In this document: piece after piece, positions 54,536-62,976 of the stretch
Numbering within the stretch: the first letter of the stretch is position 1
Layout: the number at the start of each line of letters is the position of its first letter
Assembly: GCF_003991135.1 (NCBI RefSeq)
Contig: NZ_CP016379.1
Location: forward strand, 2,418,001 to 2,482,000
Source of the DNA: Anoxybacter fermentans
GTDB taxonomy: Bacteria; Bacillota; Halanaerobiia; DY22613
Length of the DNA: 64,000 bases
Direction: 5' to 3'
Notes under the pieces: generated by a model
What the model saw: the letters and a program-made list of their open reading frames with translations, nothing else
What the model was told of the DNA's origin: nothing
Databases searched by the model: none
Made by a program: the position numbers and the translations under genes

Positions 54536-54566
54536 TATTTTACCCCCATTTCTTTATTCATTTAAG

Positions 54567-54596
54567 ATTATACTGCAAAAAGCTAATTTTGAGCAA
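54567..54596 (-). promoter_or_regulatory. Candidate promoter at the edge of repeat copy A
   Basis: On the minus strand TTGCTC (54596-54591) lies 18 bases upstream of a perfect TATAAT (54572-54567). The -35 and spacer are inside the repeat; five of the six -10 bases come from the flanking sequence. It points at the aminotransferase, whose ATG is 32 bases away. Confidence 0.45.
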
Positions 54597-54780
54597 CATA
54601 GAAATTTTTCGCTAAACTATCTTAGCGAGATTTCCGACGAAATAAAACCTCATCACAGGAGGTGATGAGCTAATCAAGGGCCAGAAGGGCCCTTTGATTA
54701 GGAAGTCTTATTTCGACGGAAATCGAGCTTTAGATGGTTCAAAAAATTTCTCAAGAAGCGAAAAATTAGCTTTTTGCAGT
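54572..54780. repeat. 209-bp palindromic interspersed repeat, copy A
   Basis: Begins ACTGCAAAAAGCTAATTTT and ends with its inverse complement AAAATTAGCTTTTTGCAGT. The arms pair along most of their length. The centre forms two hairpins: CTCATCAC/GTGATGAG and CTAATCAA..TTTGATTAG. No coding potential. Copies B and C have the same length. It looks like a MITE-like or REP-like non-autonomous element. Confidence 0.92.
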
Positions 54781-54884
54781 TTAATTATATTTATTATATC
54801 AAAATCTATAGAAGCATGGAAGGAAAATAAAGAAAAACTGCCGAATTTAATTATACGGACTATTGAAAGGGGGCCTTATAAGGT

Positions 54885-55661
54885 ATGAAATCTCATGTTC
54901 CGATATTTCTGCTAATCATCTTTTTATTTACCAGTGTAGTCCATGGAGAGATAGGCCATCCTGAAGCAAACTTAAAAGAAGGGTATCTTATCGTTGAAGG
55001 TACAGGAGTAATACCCACAAATGTTTCTGATTATGCCCAGGCTATAGCTTTAGCACGACTTGCTGCCAAAGTAGATGCTCAAAGAAATCTATTAGAGATT
55101 ATCTCCGGTCTTAAACTGAATAGTGAAACTTCTGTGGTTAATCTAATAGCCCATGATATAGTTCGTACCAAAGTAGAAGGAATGTTACAGGGAGCACAAT
55201 TTATCCCCGAAAACGAATATATTCAAAATGGAATTTACCATCTGAGACTAAAAATTAATGTCAAAGATATTAATTCCAGCATCTCTCCAACTCCGCAAAC
55301 AGAACTCTCCATTATTCCTAAAGAAGAATATACCGGTCTAATTATTGATGCCAGAGGGTTTAACATTACTTCTCCCAACTTATTGAAGATTCGAGACCTT
55401 AAGGGAAATTTAATCTATTCAGCCGATCGTGCCCTTTATCAACCTACTGACTCCATCTTTAAAAAGAGTAAAAATGACGCTTTATCCGATCCACGGATTG
55501 GTGATAACCCTCTTATTATCAGTGCCATTAAGATTGATTCTTATGATGACTCAACCCTTTTCGTCTCTGAAGGGGACGGACGTCTGATTTTAACTTCTCT
55601 CGAAAATACCGATGTATTTTTATTATCAAAAATAGTAGTAATTACCGGGGGGGCTGAATAA
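54885..55661 (+). CDS. Secreted LPP20/FlgP-like protein
   Basis: The 258-residue protein has a signal peptide (FLLIIFLFTSVVHGE) without a lipobox cysteine. After it, GYLIVEGTGVIPTNVSDYAQ then AIALARLAAKVDAQRNLLEI and GLKLNSETSVVNLIAHDIVR form the LPP20-like domain, the family of the Vibrio outer-membrane flagellar protein FlgP. The C-terminal half (about 145-258) has GLIIDARGFNITSPNLLKIR, ISAIKIDSYDDSTLFVSEGD and no recognised fold. Its stop overlaps the next start (TAATG). It is transcribed away from the flagellar locus. Possible role in the outer-envelope part of the flagellum. Confidence 0.7.
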   Translation: MKSHVPIFLLIIFLFTSVVHGEIGHPEANLKEGYLIVEGTGVIPTNVSDYAQAIALARLAAKVDAQRNLLEIISGLKLNSETSVVNLIAHDIVRTKVEGMLQGAQFIPENEYIQNGIYHLRLKINVKDINSSISPTPQTELSIIPKEEYTGLIIDARGFNITSPNLLKIRDLKGNLIYSADRALYQPTDSIFKKSKNDALSDPRIGDNPLIISAIKIDSYDDSTLFVSEGDGRLILTSLENTDVFLLSKIVVITGGAE

Positions 55662-57064
55662 TGATTAAAAAATGTAAAATAAGTTTACTCATCACATTAG
55701 TTTTAGTCTTTATTTTTACTATCTTCACTTTTATAGTTTTTTCTGCTGAAAAAGTAAAAACGATTCGAGTAGAAGCTACAGGTCAGGCTCCCCTCCAATC
55801 AGATCGGGGATTAACAAAGGAAATGGCTCTTAAAGATGCCTTCAGAAATGCTTTAGAACAGGCATTAGGGATCCGGATTACAGCAGCTACTGTTATGGAA
55901 AATCTAACCATTACCTCAGATCTGGTAATTAGCCAGACCTTTGGGCATTTGCTTTCATATGAAATTATTAATGAATGGGAATCTGAAGATAAATTTTTTA
56001 TCACCATTTCTGCTGAAGTCAGTTCCGATGCCAGTTGGTGGGCTGAGTTTGAAGGAACTATGGATGTTATTCGTCTTCATTTAAAGGACCCTCTTTTGCA
56101 AGAAAGTTATACCATTCCAGACCAAATTCAACTGGGTGCTCTCTACTCTGATCCGCTAATTGTAATTCCTGTCAAAGGTAAAGATTATTACATATTGGCT
56201 ATTCATGCAGAGAGTAATCAGATTGTGTGGAAAAAGAAACTTCCTGATAAATTAACTACTCCACTAGTCACCGATGGAAAATGGCTTATTGCTATTACAA
56301 CAAACCAGGTAATTTGTATCAATCTTCAATACGGCTGGATTAAATGGAGACATTCTTTAAAAGAACCTGTTTATCAAACTCCAGCTATTTCAAATGAAAC
56401 CATCTATATTACTACTCAAAAAGGAAGCCTTTTGGCACTGGATTTAAAAAAAGGAAAGCTTCTCTGGCAAAATCGGACTCTGAGTAGTTTCCTTACTGCA
56501 CCAAAGGTTGCTGGAGATTATCTTTATTTTGCAGATGGTGATGGTTATATTCATGCTTTCGATTTAAGTATTCAGAGCCGGCTTTTTAAAAAATTGATCA
56601 GTCCAAAATTAAAAGTAGCTCCCACGCCCACTCGGATTTTGACCTATCTTAGTTGGAGTGATCAATATGACAGAATAGCAGCCATAAACTCTGTTGATGG
56701 AACCATAATCTGGGACTTTAAAGGCCAGCCTTCTTCTACCAATACTTTAGTTCTTTCTCCTTATTTGGCTCAAGATAAAATTCTCTCTGTTTTTATAAAT
56801 TCAAAAGAAAGTATAATTTATCTTCTTGATGCCAAAACCGGATATCAATACTGGAAACAAAAACTTTCTGTACCTGTAACCGAAATTGCAGGTGTAGGAA
56901 ATGGACTAATTATCCTCAATACCTGGCGTGGAATCCGAATTCTGGATCTAGAACATGGCAGCCTTCTCTGGAGCAGTAAAGGATCCGGTCTTAAAACCCA
57001 ACTTTTAGCCAGTGAAGACCGACTCTATTATCTTCATGGGCAAACACTGGATATTTATCACTAA
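55661..57064 (+). CDS. FlgT-N-like domain fused to a PQQ-type beta-propeller, secreted
   Basis: At 467 residues it has an N-terminal signal/anchor (ISLLITLVLVFIFTIFTFIV). Next, a domain at about 32-125 resembles the N-terminal part of the H-ring protein FlgT: TIRVEATGQAPLQSDRGLTK, EMALKDAFRNALEQALGIRI, IISAEVSSDASWW-like end. The rest (about 145-467) is a PQQ/BamB-type propeller with repeats such as VICINLQYGWIKWRHSLKEP, LLALDLKKGKLLWQNRTLSS and LDAKTGYQYWKQKL. Translationally coupled to the preceding gene and followed by a strong terminator. The fusion is unusual. Confidence 0.7.
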   Translation: MIKKCKISLLITLVLVFIFTIFTFIVFSAEKVKTIRVEATGQAPLQSDRGLTKEMALKDAFRNALEQALGIRITAATVMENLTITSDLVISQTFGHLLSYEIINEWESEDKFFITISAEVSSDASWWAEFEGTMDVIRLHLKDPLLQESYTIPDQIQLGALYSDPLIVIPVKGKDYYILAIHAESNQIVWKKKLPDKLTTPLVTDGKWLIAITTNQVICINLQYGWIKWRHSLKEPVYQTPAISNETIYITTQKGSLLALDLKKGKLLWQNRTLSSFLTAPKVAGDYLYFADGDGYIHAFDLSIQSRLFKKLISPKLKVAPTPTRILTYLSWSDQYDRIAAINSVDGTIIWDFKGQPSSTNTLVLSPYLAQDKILSVFINSKESIIYLLDAKTGYQYWKQKLSVPVTEIAGVGNGLIILNTWRGIRILDLEHGSLLWSSKGSGLKTQLLASEDRLYYLHGQTLDIYH

Positions 57065-57104
57065 AATTTTGTCATAACCTTGATAAATCAGGACATAAAA
57101 CAAG

Positions 57105-57138
57105 CCGTGCCTTTTATTTGAATTGGGCACGGTTTTTT
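57105..57138 (+). terminator. Intrinsic terminator after the FlgT-like gene
   Basis: CCGTGCC (57105-57111) pairs perfectly with GGCACGG (57126-57132), followed by TTTTTT (57133-57138) on the coding strand. Confidence 0.92.
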
Positions 57139-57161
57139 ATTATAACAGATCTTAAGATTAA

Positions 57162-57370
57162 ACTGCAAAAAGCTAATTTTGAGCGACATAGAAATTTTTC
57201 GCCAAATCATCTTAGCGAGATTTCTGACGAAATAAGGCCTCATCACAGAAGGTGATGAGCTAATCAAGGGCCAGGAGGGCCCTTTGATTAGGAAGCCTTA
57301 TTTCGGCAGAAATCGAGCTTTAGATGATTCGAAAAATTTCTCAAGAAGCGAAAAATTAGCTTTTTGCAGT
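57162..57370. repeat. 209-bp palindromic interspersed repeat, copy B
   Basis: Same orientation as copy A and about 93% identical by eye; nearly all differences are transitions. The flanks extend the terminal inverted repeat to TTAAACTGC on both sides. One difference keeps pairing: A-T in copy A becomes G-C in copy B in the AAATAAGGC/GCCTTATTT stem. It lies between two convergent genes. Confidence 0.92.
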
Positions 57371-57463
57371 TTAACCATAATATAGATTAATACAAAATGT
57401 TATCTACAACCTGCAAAAAGTATAATTCCCTGAACATTAAAAAAGCTGTCATACTGGACATCA

Positions 57464-59335
57464 TTAAGAACCAATATTAATTGCAATGGCTTTAAAATCC
57501 CCTTCAATGAATTCTAAAATGACTTCTACGTCTGAAACTACTCCCATTTTTTCGGTTATCTCTAATTCTTCTGACTGGCCTAAATAATCTCCCGCATCAA
57601 TTTTTAAATTTTGATTTACGTCAATCCAGCCAATAACCCGGCCCTTCCCGGGTCTGACTTTTGCTAACTCAAAACTACCATTTACTTCAACCTGAACTAC
57701 CGGACTTTTCAATTGAGCCCATCCACCTTCAATAGAGCCAAAAAAGACATATGTGTGTTGAAAACGATTCAAAGCAGCAAAGGCATCTACCAGACCATAC
57801 CCTGTCTCTTCATCATAACCCGGTGGGCCCAGGTCTCTAGCAGTTTCACGTAAAATCAAACGAATATAATCCGGGTCTTTTATTCCATGGGCAATGAGAA
57901 GAGCCGCGACTCCACTCACATGGGGGGCAGCCATAGATGTACCCTCCATATAATCATAAGAATCTCCCACCAGACTATCCCAAATAGTACTCAACACCTG
58001 GGCTTTTCTTCCAAGCCTACTATTCCCACCTGGAGCCATCAATTCCAATCCTTTTCCATATGATGAATAATAAGTACGTTCTCCATCTGGCCCTACTGAA
58101 CCCACTGCAATCACTTCTGGATAAGCTGCTGGATAAAGCAAATAATCACTTCCAGTATTTCCCGCTGCTGCAACCAATAAAATCCCCGCTTGAGCGGCTT
58201 TTTTAATTGCATAATGAAGATCAGGAAAATCATAAGATGGATTATATCGATCATATGTTCCAAAACTCATGTTAATCACCTGAGCACCATTTTCAATGGC
58301 AGCATCAATACCTTTCAAGATATGATAAATGGTCGCACCAGTTTCAGTAAAAACCCGAATTGGTAAAATAGATACATCAGGGGCAACACCTACTACACCA
58401 TATTGATTTGAAACAGCCCCAATAATCCCCGCCACATGCAGTCCATGTGCATTTAAAGCCGGATTCTCCTCATTATTACCAGTTACATCGATTGCCGGTA
58501 ATAAATTTGGCAAAAGATCAGGATGGGCGCTGGTATAAAGGGTATCTAATAAAGCTACCACAACCCCAGAACCGGTAGAATACTTCCAGGCAGAACTGAC
58601 ATTGAGCATTTGCATATTCCAGAGCTCAGGCCAATATTCATCTTCTGGCTCTATCCCTAAAGATTGAATCATCCGATTTGGGGTAATAAATTCCACATCT
58701 TCAGAAATTTCTGCCATAAATTTTTCACTATTTACCCCGGGCTTGAGTCGGATGGTATAAAATTCACCACCCGACTCATAGACTATCTCTCCCTTTCCTT
58801 TTAATTTTTGTACCAACCACTCTTTACCCCTATGGGTTACCAGATTAAATTCACCTTCGACGATTCTGGATTCAAATTCCAAAGGCTTAACTTCAGAAAG
58901 GCCTGTTTTATTATTCACGGTATTAATTTCCGGCAGACTAAATTCCCGATAAATCCTGCCGGTAATCTTTTCACTAGCAGGCGCCAGATATAATGGTGGA
59001 AGATGCACCGTTTGAGAGTAACGCCCATCAATGGCATGTTCTAAAGTATAGGTCTCGTAATCTGAATGCTTAAATACCAGTCTTACTATACCCTTAGTGG
59101 GAGAAACTTGTACCGAAAATCGCCCATCTGCACCTGTTCTCCCAACTAACTCTCCAGTTTTTGTGTAGATTTCTACACCTTTGATAGGCTGTTGAAGAAC
59201 CGAACTTTCCCGGACCTCTCCCATGAATCGGACAGTATAGAGGTGGATCCCTGAAGAAGTGCAACCGCTTAAGAAAATACAGATAATAATAAGCAAAGTA
59301 AAGATTCTTTTAAAATGGCCAGCCACTTTTGCCAC
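57464..59335 (-). CDS. Subtilisin-like serine protease (S8), lipoprotein
   Basis: The 623-residue protein has a lipobox LSGC with C25 as lipidation site. An N-terminal carboxypeptidase-regulatory/SdrD-like beta domain (about 35-115: QPIKGVEIYTKTGELVGRTG) is followed by a propeptide-like part (about 155-225) and the S8 domain (about 240-530). The triad is D264 (VALLDTLYTSAHPDL), H297 (NAHGLHVAGIIGA) and S467 (MEGTSMAAPHVSG), with oxyanion N393 (AAAGNTGSD). DTL and HGLH differ from the usual DTG and HGTH but keep the catalytic residues. It follows a possible outer-membrane protein gene by three bases. Confidence 0.9.
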   Translation of the reverse strand: MAKVAGHFKRIFTLLIIICIFLSGCTSSGIHLYTVRFMGEVRESSVLQQPIKGVEIYTKTGELVGRTGADGRFSVQVSPTKGIVRLVFKHSDYETYTLEHAIDGRYSQTVHLPPLYLAPASEKITGRIYREFSLPEINTVNNKTGLSEVKPLEFESRIVEGEFNLVTHRGKEWLVQKLKGKGEIVYESGGEFYTIRLKPGVNSEKFMAEISEDVEFITPNRMIQSLGIEPEDEYWPELWNMQMLNVSSAWKYSTGSGVVVALLDTLYTSAHPDLLPNLLPAIDVTGNNEENPALNAHGLHVAGIIGAVSNQYGVVGVAPDVSILPIRVFTETGATIYHILKGIDAAIENGAQVINMSFGTYDRYNPSYDFPDLHYAIKKAAQAGILLVAAAGNTGSDYLLYPAAYPEVIAVGSVGPDGERTYYSSYGKGLELMAPGGNSRLGRKAQVLSTIWDSLVGDSYDYMEGTSMAAPHVSGVAALLIAHGIKDPDYIRLILRETARDLGPPGYDEETGYGLVDAFAALNRFQHTYVFFGSIEGGWAQLKSPVVQVEVNGSFELAKVRPGKGRVIGWIDVNQNLKIDAGDYLGQSEELEITEKMGVVSDVEVILEFIEGDFKAIAINIGS

Positions 59336-59338
59336 CTC

Positions 59339-59860
59339 CTATAGCTCAAATCCGATCCAGAGAGCCATTCCATCTTTATTTCCCAAAAGGTTACCTATTC
59401 CCACTTTACCCCTGATCCATTTCTTTAAAAAACTAACCTCCAGTTGATATCTTAAAAAACTTCCAACAAGATCATCTATCATCACATCTGCACCGAGAAT
59501 TATTTTACCAAAAGAAACCGGAATTTGAGCTCTTAGACCATTTCTAAAAAAAGAATTATTTGTCTTTAGAAGTCGATATTCTTCCAAACCTACAAGACTC
59601 CAGATTTCCCCGTAGGAATGACCTGAAAGACGAAAATCAAAACCCACTCCCACCTGTTGATAATAATCACTAATCTTAAAAATCTCCAGATAAAAACCCT
59701 GTGTATCAACAGGGAGAATTTCAATTCTCCATAAATAACCATTCTCGTTTTTTAGAAAAATCTTATTTCCATTTAAAATAATAGAACTTGCTTCTCCTAC
59801 ACTGGAAAGTAAAACAATACAAATAATCACCAGACAGAGAACTAATTTATATTTATCCAT
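59339..59860 (-). CDS. Secreted beta-rich protein, possible small outer-membrane barrel
   Basis: I do not recognise the family. The 173-residue protein has a signal peptide (LVLCLVIICIVLLSSVGEAS) and alternating hydrophobic strands: WRIEILPVDTQGFYLEIFKI, GVGFDFRLSGHSYGEIWSLV, KIILGADVMIDDLVGSFLRY, and it ends with GMALWIGFEL, an aromatic-rich last strand as in outer-membrane barrels. With the FlgH/FlgI evidence for an outer membrane, a small barrel is plausible. It lies three bases upstream of the lipoprotein protease, and 26 bases after phosphoglucomutase. Confidence 0.6.
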   Translation of the reverse strand: MDKYKLVLCLVIICIVLLSSVGEASSIILNGNKIFLKNENGYLWRIEILPVDTQGFYLEIFKISDYYQQVGVGFDFRLSGHSYGEIWSLVGLEEYRLLKTNNSFFRNGLRAQIPVSFGKIILGADVMIDDLVGSFLRYQLEVSFLKKWIRGKVGIGNLLGNKDGMALWIGFEL

Positions 59861-59886
59861 TTATTTCTCACCTTTTTTAAGTCAAA

Positions 59887-61617
59887 TTAAACCCCAATGT
59901 ACTCTAAAACTTCCTCTTTTAATTCTTTCAGAAGTTCTTTTGCATGGGACATACTCTTTCCAATAATGGAAAAATATATTTTAATCTTAGGTTCAGTTCC
60001 GGATGGTCGAATAGTAAAACTGCTTTTATCTTCAAATTTGAATTTTAAGACATTTGATTTGGGTAAATCAAGAGCTGTTCTTTTTCCAGTGGGTATGTCA
60101 TATTTCTCCTGATTTAAATAATCTTCCAGCCAGATAACTTTTCTACTTCCTACTTCTTTTGGAGTTGTTTTTCTCAATTTTTCCATGATTTTTTGAATCT
60201 TCTCCTGACCTTCAACACCCTCAAGTTTAATGGAAACCAGATCTTCCATATAGTAACCGTATTCTTCCATCAACTTCATTAACTGCTCATAAAGGGTAAT
60301 CCCCTGAGCCTTATAATATGCAGCCATTTCACAGATCATAGCAGCAGCTACCACTCCGTCTTTATCACGGGCATGAGTTCCTACCAGATATCCATAACTT
60401 TCTTCAAAACCAAAAAGAAATTCATGCTCTCCTGTCTCTTCAAACTCCTTAATTTTCTCACCGATAAATTTAAAACCTGTCAGGGTGTCAATAACACCTA
60501 CCCCGTATTTTTCTGCAATCTCCTTAACCATATCAGTAGTGACTATTGTTTTAATAATAACGCCATTCGACGGAAGTTTACCTTTCTTTGAACGCTGAGA
60601 TAAAATGTATTCAGTCAACAATACTCCAACCTGGTTTCCCGTAAGTACAACATAATCTCCATCTTCAGTCTGTTCTACAACTCCAATCCGGTCACAATCA
60701 GGATCAGTTCCAATGATAAGATCAGCCTCTTCTTTTTTAGCCATTTCAATGGCCAGATTAAAGGCTTCTTTCTCCTCAGGGTTAGGATATTCTACAGTTG
60801 AAAAATCCGGGTCCGGCAATTCCTGTTCAGGCACTACTTTTACATTATTAAATCCCTTTTCAGCTAAAACCCGTCGAACCGGGATATTACCTGTACCATG
60901 CAATGGTGTATAAATAATCTTTAAGTTGGCTACATAATCCTGAAAACCCGGATCAATAAAGGAAAGACTTTTTATTTTGTCAATAAATTTGTCTTCAACA
61001 CTTTTATCAATTATATTAAAGAGCCCCATTTGTTCTGCTTTCTCTCTGGACATAGTCTTAACCTGACTAAAATCAGTTACCTTCTTTATTTCCTCGATAA
61101 TTAAAGAAGCAAGATCAGGTACTATCTGACCGCCATCTTCCCAATAAACCTTATAGCCATTATATTCAGGCGGATTATGTGAAGCCGTAATAACTACACC
61201 GGCAATAGTATTCAATTCTCTTACCGCAAAAGAAAGCATTGGGGTTGGGGTTAATTTGTCAAATATGTATGTTTTGATACCATTGGCATTCAATACCGAA
61301 GCCGTTTCTAAAGCAAATTCACTAGAGTAATGTCTGGAATCATAGGCAATTGCAACTCCCCGATTAAGAGCTTCATCACCTAATTTCTTAATATAATTTG
61401 CAAGACCCTGAGTAGCTTTACGTACAGTGTATTTATTCATGCGGTTTGTTCCAGGTCCAATTATTCCTCTAAGCCCTCCTGTCCCGAACTCAAGATCACA
61501 GTAAAACCTTTCTTTTATTTCGGCCTCATTATCTTTTATTTTTAAAAGCTCCTCTTTTGTCTTTTCATCAATATAGCTACTGTTTAACCACTCATTGTAT
61601 TTCTTTATATAATCCAA
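59887..61617 (-). CDS. pgcA: Phosphoglucomutase/phosphomannomutase (alpha-phosphohexomutase)
   Basis: At 576 residues it is the long Bacillus PgcA-type. It interconverts hexose 1- and 6-phosphates. The active serine is S146 in VVITASHNPPEYNGYKVYW; the metal loop is IIGTDPDCDRIGVVEQ; FGFEESYGYLVGTHARDKDG binds the sugar and TIRPSGTEPKIKIYFSI the phosphate. It may supply glucose-1-phosphate or related phosphates for glycan synthesis. It is separated from manA by repeat copy C. Confidence 0.95.
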   Translation of the reverse strand: MDYIKKYNEWLNSSYIDEKTKEELLKIKDNEAEIKERFYCDLEFGTGGLRGIIGPGTNRMNKYTVRKATQGLANYIKKLGDEALNRGVAIAYDSRHYSSEFALETASVLNANGIKTYIFDKLTPTPMLSFAVRELNTIAGVVITASHNPPEYNGYKVYWEDGGQIVPDLASLIIEEIKKVTDFSQVKTMSREKAEQMGLFNIIDKSVEDKFIDKIKSLSFIDPGFQDYVANLKIIYTPLHGTGNIPVRRVLAEKGFNNVKVVPEQELPDPDFSTVEYPNPEEKEAFNLAIEMAKKEEADLIIGTDPDCDRIGVVEQTEDGDYVVLTGNQVGVLLTEYILSQRSKKGKLPSNGVIIKTIVTTDMVKEIAEKYGVGVIDTLTGFKFIGEKIKEFEETGEHEFLFGFEESYGYLVGTHARDKDGVVAAAMICEMAAYYKAQGITLYEQLMKLMEEYGYYMEDLVSIKLEGVEGQEKIQKIMEKLRKTTPKEVGSRKVIWLEDYLNQEKYDIPTGKRTALDLPKSNVLKFKFEDKSSFTIRPSGTEPKIKIYFSIIGKSMSHAKELLKELKEEVLEYIGV

Positions 61618-61881
61618 ACCAGCTCATCCCCTTTCTCTAATTTTCAGACTTTGATACTCATTGTTAATTTTTACAAATTGACCAGAAATAATACCATGAT
61701 TTTACTGCAAAAAGCTAATTTTTCACTTCAAAAAAAATTTTTCGAACCATCTAAAGTTCGATTTCAATCAAAATAAGGCGCACTAATCAATGGGCCCTTC
61801 AGGCCCTTGATTAGCTCATCATATCCTCATATGAGGCCTTATTTCGACTGAAATCTCACTAAGATAAGTTGACGAAAAATT
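61618..61881. other. Gap between pgcA and manA, largely repeat copy C
   Basis: The first 86 bp (61618-61703) contain the AT-rich leader of pgcA with a purine-rich ribosome binding site; the remainder is the palindromic repeat that runs into the manA coding end. No gene is seen. Confidence 0.65.
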
Positions 61882-61912
61882 TCAATAGCGCTCAAAATTA
61901 GCTTTTTGCAGT
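61704..61912. repeat. 209-bp palindromic interspersed repeat, copy C (inverted)
   Basis: Opposite orientation to copies A and B and more diverged, but again 209 bp with ACTGCAAAAAGCTAATTTT ends. The AAATAAGGC/GCCTTATTT stem and the CTAATCAA..TTGATTAG hairpin are kept, so pairing is conserved. Its right end encodes the last codons of manA, and its left end lies 86 bp upstream of pgcA. Confidence 0.92.
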
Positions 61913-62976
61913 TTAATCATATCATTTAATCCACCTACTTTACCCAAATCAGCTTTACTATAACCCTTAGCTAACAAAGGTGTAATAATCTCATGCTCAA
62001 GATCTGGTATATAGCTTTTTAAGATTTTTACCTGACCTGTAAGCTCAAAATTTCCCAAAGTAGCAGGGATTACCCATGTCTCTCCTTTAGCCAGCCGATA
62101 ATTATCGGTTTTTATCTTTAATTCACCACTTCCCTCTAAAACCATCCAGATCTCGAAACGTTCCGGACTAATCTGGCCTTTCATCCTTTCAACTTTTAAT
62201 TCTTCCACTGCAAAATAAGGGCAAGCGGTAAGCAGACGGCTCTGCCATCCATCTTTTTTTAGTATAATTCCGGGATGAGGATTGATACCAGTCCGGTTGA
62301 AGTCAATTACTTCTAATGCTTCTTTAATATGTAGTTTACGGGGTTTTCCATCCAACCCTACCCGATTCCAATCATAGACACGATAAGTAGTATCAGAGTT
62401 CTGCTGGATCTCAGCAATTCTAACTCCTTCAAGAATAGCATGAATGGTTCCTGCGGGAATATAAAAAGCATCTCCCGGTTTGACAGGTACTTCATTCAAA
62501 CATTCATGAAGAGTCCCTTTTTCAATACTTTTAGCAAACTCAGACCGGGTTACTCCAGGCTTTACGCCCATAATTAATTTTGCACCGGGTTCTGCATCCA
62601 ATACATACCACATCTCAGTTTTACCCAATTCTCCAGGCTTAACCTGCCTGGCATATTCATCATCAGGGTGAACCTGAACCGAAAGGCGATCACTGGCATC
62701 CAGAAATTTGATCAACAAAGGAAAAGGGTCAAACCCTTCCCTGGTTATCCGTTTACCTAAAATTTCTTCAGGATACTTTTGAATGACCTCTTTAAAGGTT
62801 TGCCCTGCGAAATCTCCATCCTCCACTATACTCATTTCATCAGGACGACAGGTTAGCTCCCAACTCTCGCCAATAAGCTTTTCTCCGGGCAAATCGCGAC
62901 CAAAAGCCTCTTCTAACCAACGTCCGCCCCAGATTTTTTCTTTATAGATTGGTTTACATCTAAATGGATAGACCAC
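61882..62976 (-). CDS. manA: Mannose-6-phosphate isomerase, class I
   Basis: Cupin-fold zinc isomerase interconverting fructose-6-P and mannose-6-P. Typical parts: FRCKPIYKEKIWGGRWLEEA, SWELTCRPDEMSIVEDGDF, the zinc site LSVQVHPDDEYARQ, and YIPAGTIHAILEGVRIAEIQ. About 364 residues from the GTG at 62976, which has GGGAG eight bases upstream; an upstream GTG at 62985 touches that site. The family C-terminus is reached around SKADLGKVGGL; the final nine residues (LQKANFERY) and the stop codon come from repeat copy C. Confidence 0.93.
   Translation of the reverse strand: MVYPFRCKPIYKEKIWGGRWLEEAFGRDLPGEKLIGESWELTCRPDEMSIVEDGDFAGQTFKEVIQKYPEEILGKRITREGFDPFPLLIKFLDASDRLSVQVHPDDEYARQVKPGELGKTEMWYVLDAEPGAKLIMGVKPGVTRSEFAKSIEKGTLHECLNEVPVKPGDAFYIPAGTIHAILEGVRIAEIQQNSDTTYRVYDWNRVGLDGKPRKLHIKEALEVIDFNRTGINPHPGIILKKDGWQSRLLTACPYFAVEELKVERMKGQISPERFEIWMVLEGSGELKIKTDNYRLAKGETWVIPATLGNFELTGQVKILKSYIPDLEHEIITPLLAKGYSKADLGKVGGLNDMIKLQKANFERY

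Follow-up and report, generated by a model that had tools for sequence, protein, structure and literature searches.

The window analysed here, a 64,000-nucleotide stretch of the Anoxybacter fermentans genome, carries three long palindromic repeats, which raises the question of what kind of element they are. A sequence-only reading had suggested selection on structure and named a MITE family, a REP-like element or a transcribed structured RNA as options. We find that the repeats very probably belong to a MITE family, in which a non-coding palindrome of about 221 bp would owe its movement to a DDE transposase of an IS1182-like group acting in trans.

The three palindromes were found where that reading had placed them, each 209 bp long between its 19-mer ends (A, 54572-54780; B, 57162-57370; C, 61704-61912), and the inverted ends ACTGCAAAAAGCTAATTTT are indeed common to all of them. 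Copies A and B are 93.3% identical, and all 14 differences over the 209 positions are transitions, with no transversion. Copy C lies in the reverse orientation, and its reverse complement is 83.7% identical to copy A (18 transitions, 16 transversions). The 19-mer occurs six times in the window, against 0.06 occurrences expected from shuffles. The described fold, one long stem with two small hairpins on top, was recovered for copy A in both RNA and DNA folding; the RNA fold reached -99.8 kcal/mol (z -13.6, none of 200 shuffles equally low) and the DNA fold -64.6 kcal/mol, far lower than shuffles. The compensatory exchange of an A-T for a G-C pair in the AAATAAGGC stem is real, though copy A has a mismatch, A-C, at the adjacent pair. 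Two points of the initial description had to be corrected, since the element is longer by 6 bp at each end, which gives about 221 bp, and the genome holds about 580 copies and not three (Table 1).

Table 1. Coordinates in the window of the three candidate MITE copies and their parts.
Feature	Position	Strand	Remark
Copy A, full element with six outer bases per end	54566..54786	+	221 bp; no exact flanking duplication
Copy B, full element	57156..57376	+	221 bp; no exact flanking duplication
Copy C, full element, reversed	61698..61918	-	221 bp
Left terminal inverted repeat, copy A	54566..54590	+	GATTATACTGCAAAAAGCTAATTTT; outer 16 bp identical to one end of a decayed IS of the same genome
Right terminal inverted repeat, copy A	54762..54786	-	
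First small apical hairpin, copy A main stem	54649..54669	+	RNA and DNA folds
Second small apical hairpin, copy A main stem	54670..54701	+	RNA and DNA folds
Two apical hairpins, copy B	57239..57291	+	alignment to copy A, equal length
Two apical hairpins, copy C	61783..61835	-	read from sequence; alignment

The search of the whole genome, a single contig of 3.56 Mb, with the 19-mer at up to three mismatches gave 577 forward and 583 reverse matches, and therefore about 580 copies; the reversed 19-mer, used as a control in the same genome, gave 0 and 1. For closer inspection 54 stretches were picked by coordinate, the window being one of them (1.097 Mb, 31% of the genome), and these contained 153 two-ended copies, which corresponds to one per 7.2 kb and to 2.7% of the sequence, after end pairs with more than four mismatches, pairs outside 50-350 bp and single ends had been dropped. 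An earlier count had yielded 48 pairs of ends alongside 21 single ones, some of them due to chance. Measured between the 19-mers with the ends included, 90 of the 153 copies are 199-215 bp long, 18 are 170-185 bp, 22 are 111-131 bp and 23 have other sizes. Among the copies inspected, those of the 174-bp class are mostly without one hairpin or a part of the upper stem, and both hairpins are missing from the 123-bp class. With the outer bases the elements range from about 85 to 239 bp, which leaves no room for a transposase gene.

The true ends became apparent from an alignment of the flanks, in which conservation continues for six bases beyond each 19-mer (left, GRTTAW; right, WTAAYC), so that the full end reads GRTTAW-ACTGCAAAAAGC and the inverted ends of the aligned copies are 25 bp long. 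This alignment, as well as the 111-copy boundary test, the size-class copies, the covariation set and the G-U and A-C counts of 32:30 and 143:65 given below, relied in part on loci selected for perfect ends or for being the closest matches of copy A. Directly outside the GRTTAW boundary, 61 of the 153 copies are bordered by an exact direct repeat of 5 bp or more, against 3.7 copies on average, and 12 at most, in 1000 shuffles of the flanks; the repeats measured 6 bp in 37 copies, 7 bp in 21, 5 bp in two and 8 bp in one. In an earlier, overlapping set such duplications were present in 50 of 111 copies versus 2.8 after shuffling, and they dropped to 0 or 1 of 111 when the boundary was placed 0, 2, 4, 5 or 8 bp outside the 19-mer. 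Duplications of at least 6 bp are richer in A+T than the flanks (93% vs 71%) and have A as the penultimate and T as the last base in 55 of 59 cases each, which therefore suggests a target of about ATnnAT to ATnnnAT. An exact duplication of at least 5 bp was absent from 92 of the 153 copies and from all three copies of the window; the flanks of copy C, ATACCAT and ATATCAT, match at six of seven positions without forming an exact repeat.

The 25-base end (up to three mismatches) was matched in five of 59 genomes of the class Halanaerobiia, with 496 forward and 523 reverse matches in the genome of the window, 3 and 2 in genome G038, and single matches in three others; there was no match in G001, the sole other member of the same family among the 59 class genomes. 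These counts imply that the burst is lineage-specific among these genomes. A 28-mer from the element had no match in a broader genome-contig collection, and the degenerate ends led there to six stretches, five from one Halanaerobiaceae MAG and one, chance-like, in Lentilactobacillus. Collections of phage, plasmid and viral sequences contained no match to the element.

Related ends could be followed further with the end motif GRTTNNNCTGCAAAAAG, which was searched in the 58 other genomes of the class. An exact match occurred in 21 of the 58, many of them single and chance-like. The 30 of 51 listed places that were inspected include, in several genomes, short elements (about 108-220 bp) bounded by paired ends. 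Eight elements of this kind with the shared end motif, taken from seven other genomes, were looked at in detail, and seven are flanked by 6-7 bp duplications. In genome G015 one end pair encloses a decayed transposase with weak matches to NF033551 (IS1182) and NF033593 (ISNCY). Full IS elements were reached by a search of the class genomes with the NF033593 profile. Genome G025 contains two intact IS copies that encode a 533-aa transposase between ends GATTGCACTGCGAAAAG and are flanked by duplications of 8 and 6 bp (ATTTTAAT and ATAGAT); the copies in G031 and G045 are interrupted by stops or a frame break and have 6-bp duplications. The G025 transposase matches DDE_Tnp_1_6 (72 bits) and DUF772 (33 bits), both above their cut-offs. 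It aligns over residues 42-514 with the IS1182 profile NF033551 at 172 bits, which is under the curated cut-off of 270, and only weakly with the ISNCY profile NF033593 (64 bits, far under the cut-off of 325); its identity to the IS1182 elements in the genome of the window is 19-21%, and these have other ends. Judged from these profile matches, the partner IS appears close to IS1182, yet below the curated line. The ISDol1 group of the ISNCY family likewise has duplications of 6-7 bp.

Full IS elements with matching ends are present in G025, G031 and G045, and the genome of the window contains decayed copies only. A search with the G025 transposase detected there one decayed copy in three pieces (1188852-1190174, 40-47% identity, internal stops) and two further small fragments. 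The decayed IS lies between GATTATACTGCAAAAA and GATTAAACTGCAAAAA, is 1650 bp long in total, and its ends agree with the MITE over the 16 outermost bases; these include TAWAC, which is absent from the copies in G025, G031 and G045. There is a second relic, a deletion derivative of 779 bp, and flanking duplications are absent from both. MITE and IS have only the outer 16-17 bp in common, their interiors being unrelated by eye. Since the protein search found no intact transposase of the partner group in the genome of the window, mobilization in trans is what we infer from the matching ends, with the IS group that carries them as the presumed mover; and as every transposase copy found is broken, the family has probably ceased to move.

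It appears unlikely that another resident transposase, such as that of the intact 521-aa IS1182 or of an IS240-like element, has moved the family. The former is a separate IS1182 element found at L166 and about 20 places in the genome of the window, mostly with an open frame; because of these open frames and the 98-99% identity of the compared copies it is probably active, which speaks for this alternative. Its ends GGGGCTGTCCCAAAAGT and the ends TGTTCCGTCAAATTTTC of the IS240-like element, however, do not match the MITE end GATTAWACTGCAAAAAG, whereas the decayed IS matches it over the outer 16 bases. The 521-aa element was accordingly rejected as a partner by its different ends GGGGCTGTCCC, and so was the IS240-like IS (PF13610). 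The latter is located at L089:1092-2600 with relatives at L090-L092 and L094, in several mostly decayed copies, and at L089 and L091 a MITE sits at the IS240-like junction CTCATCAGAT; in two IS240-like copies the base at which they end in a MITE is identical. Loci L159, L171, L173 and L174, in other class genomes, carry a related IS group whose ends are GGTTTGGTCCCAAAAAGCC or GGTTTGCCCCCAAAAAGAC and whose full-length transposase frames measure about 564 aa.

The placement of the copies was assessed with gene calls obtained by a simple longest-ORF method (at least 80 aa). None of the 153 copies lies inside a real called gene, though 82% of the sample sequence is in called ORFs; the three copies called intragenic fall into ORFs of about 83-97 codons that are largely made of the element itself. 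The gene contexts of the copies (111 tandem, 20 divergent, 15 convergent, four at edges) are near the make-up of all gaps (493 tandem, 69 divergent, 73 convergent), and orientation is random with respect to tandem genes (58/111) and to replication (76/153). Intergenic placement and random orientation fit insertion followed by purging from genes, and do not fit a terminator or UTR device of fixed direction. The genome of the window has a very strong GC skew of about 0.2, which switches near 1.1 and 3.0 Mb, and at MITE sites the genes of 107 out of 111 contexts follow the leading strand.

This background has to be considered for the idea that the repeats are transcribed as a structured RNA (UTR element, riboregulator or mRNA stabilizer) whose fold is kept by selection, which we regard as improbable. 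The very stable RNA fold of copy A would agree with it, as would an alignment of 68 copies in which 95.4% of cells are paired and double changes occur in 17 of 87 pairs versus 9.4 in shuffles. Of the 69 double-change cells, however, 55 fall into four pairs that mark subfamilies (24, 12, 14 and 5), and the remaining 14 are no more than in slid controls (10-23). If the RNA matters, the decay of G-C pairs is expected to produce more G·U than A·C, and on the strand in the sense of the tandem genes G-U was indeed found in 143 cells and A-C in 65. This ratio looked convincing, and RNA selection as the main explanation was dropped when unpaired positions turned out to be equally biased; without orienting the copies the rare G-U and A-C types are balanced (32:30). 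In the corresponding test on 89 of the 153 copies (200-215 bp), the leading strand at a 6% cut-off gave 124:50 for paired and 24:10 for unpaired positions (p=1.0), at a 3% cut-off 39:19 and 11:4, and the gene-sense strand at 6% gave 84:32 and 17:8 (p=0.63). A weak hint in favor of RNA selection came from the gene-sense strand at the loosest cut-off, at which inherited variants dominate (paired 179:69, unpaired 36:29, p=0.011). Transversions are also rarer at inner paired (0.0068 per site) than at inner unpaired sites (0.0147 per site), a deficit that may be due to misalignment of the loops. Because unpaired positions show the same bias, which arises in a genome with a GC skew near 0.2, the excess of G·U is most likely due to strand-biased mutation, and together with shared ancestry this appears to account for most of the structure signal that the sequence-only reading had pointed out. 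The random orientation relative to tandem genes and the lack of any match to Rfam covariance models likewise speak against an RNA function. A caution follows for strongly skewed genomes in general, where strand-biased mutation can mimic RNA selection unless unpaired positions serve as a control.

The family is palindromic, intergenic and present in many copies, as might be expected of a REP/BIME-like repeat that depends on a RAYT (Y1, HUH) transposase. REPs, however, are 20-40 bp long and cause no target duplication, and the present element differs in its length of about 221 bp, in its 25-bp inverted ends, in its target duplications and in ends that are common to a DDE-type IS. The REP-like option is therefore very unlikely.

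The MITE option, by contrast, agrees with the copy number of about 580, the target duplications and the matching IS ends. Short non-coding length, terminal inverted repeats, target duplication, high dispersed copy number and IS-shared ends are all present, so that by every defining feature tested here at the sequence level the family appears to be a MITE. It thus belongs to an already known kind of element, and what is notable is its copy number, its full-length palindrome and the traced partner group. Correia/NEMIS elements and other bacterial MITEs are likewise short non-coding sequences with long stem-loops, terminal inverted repeats and target duplication, and they also form size variants that differ in internal segments (sizes of about 107 and 155 bp, here about 123, 174 and 209 bp), but their ends and target are different (TA in the case of Correia), and the present family is longer, with ends related to an IS1182-like IS (PMC2229807). 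MITECca01 of Cardinium cOegib is IS-related and mostly intergenic as well, with 169 copies that make up 3.5% of the chromosome; its partner is an IS982-family IS with intact copies, in contrast to the about 580 copies and the broken partner group found here (PMC9769881). Our literature search yielded no paper combining the MITE phrase with Halanaerobi, and no description of the palindrome family among the matches listed for ISDol1 or for MITE together with IS1182; the available text of a paper on 5S rRNA insertions that names Anoxybacter is silent on the palindrome repeat.

The MITE would accordingly represent a DNA transposon of about 221 bp, palindromic over its whole length and accompanied by shorter derivatives, the ends of which would be recognized in trans by a DDE transposase of the IS1182-like group. 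Insertion would take place at AT-rich intergenic targets (about ATnnAT to ATnnnAT) with duplication of 6-7 bp, and the palindromic form may persist through copying from one arm to the other or through needs of transposition. As a more far-reaching and tentative possibility, separate MITE families across Halanaerobiia might all have been seeded by a so far undescribed IS group that stands between IS1182 and ISNCY, with ends GRTTNNNCTGCRAAAAG and a target of about ATnnnAT. One of these families would have become a full-length palindrome here, stayed self-complementary at the DNA level, e.g., through correction of imperfect palindromes from arm to arm, and reached about 580 copies before the transposase died. 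Since long palindromes are usually unstable, about 580 of them, or one per 6-7 kb, represent a heavy load for a bacterial chromosome. The family, which offers related hairpins by the hundred at sites of known gene context, together with a transposase group that could be traced, can be used as a test of how palindromic MITEs spread and keep their symmetry.

Some copies have further repeats as neighbors. A small palindrome, AAATGCCCTTCGGGCATTT, adjoins some MITE copies (L108:9991, L240:6895, L244:3401) on the side away from the second repeat described next, and all three occurrences found sit no more than 5 bp from a MITE. Beside copy B, a piece of a second repeat, ATGTTATCTACAACCTGCAAAAAGTATAATTCCC, occupies positions 57390-57445 of the window; some of its other copies contain TTATCCACA, which we take to resemble a DnaA box. 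All five near copies of this second repeat in the 1.097 Mb have a MITE at a distance of 21 bp or less, so that the repeat may belong to a longer composite element.
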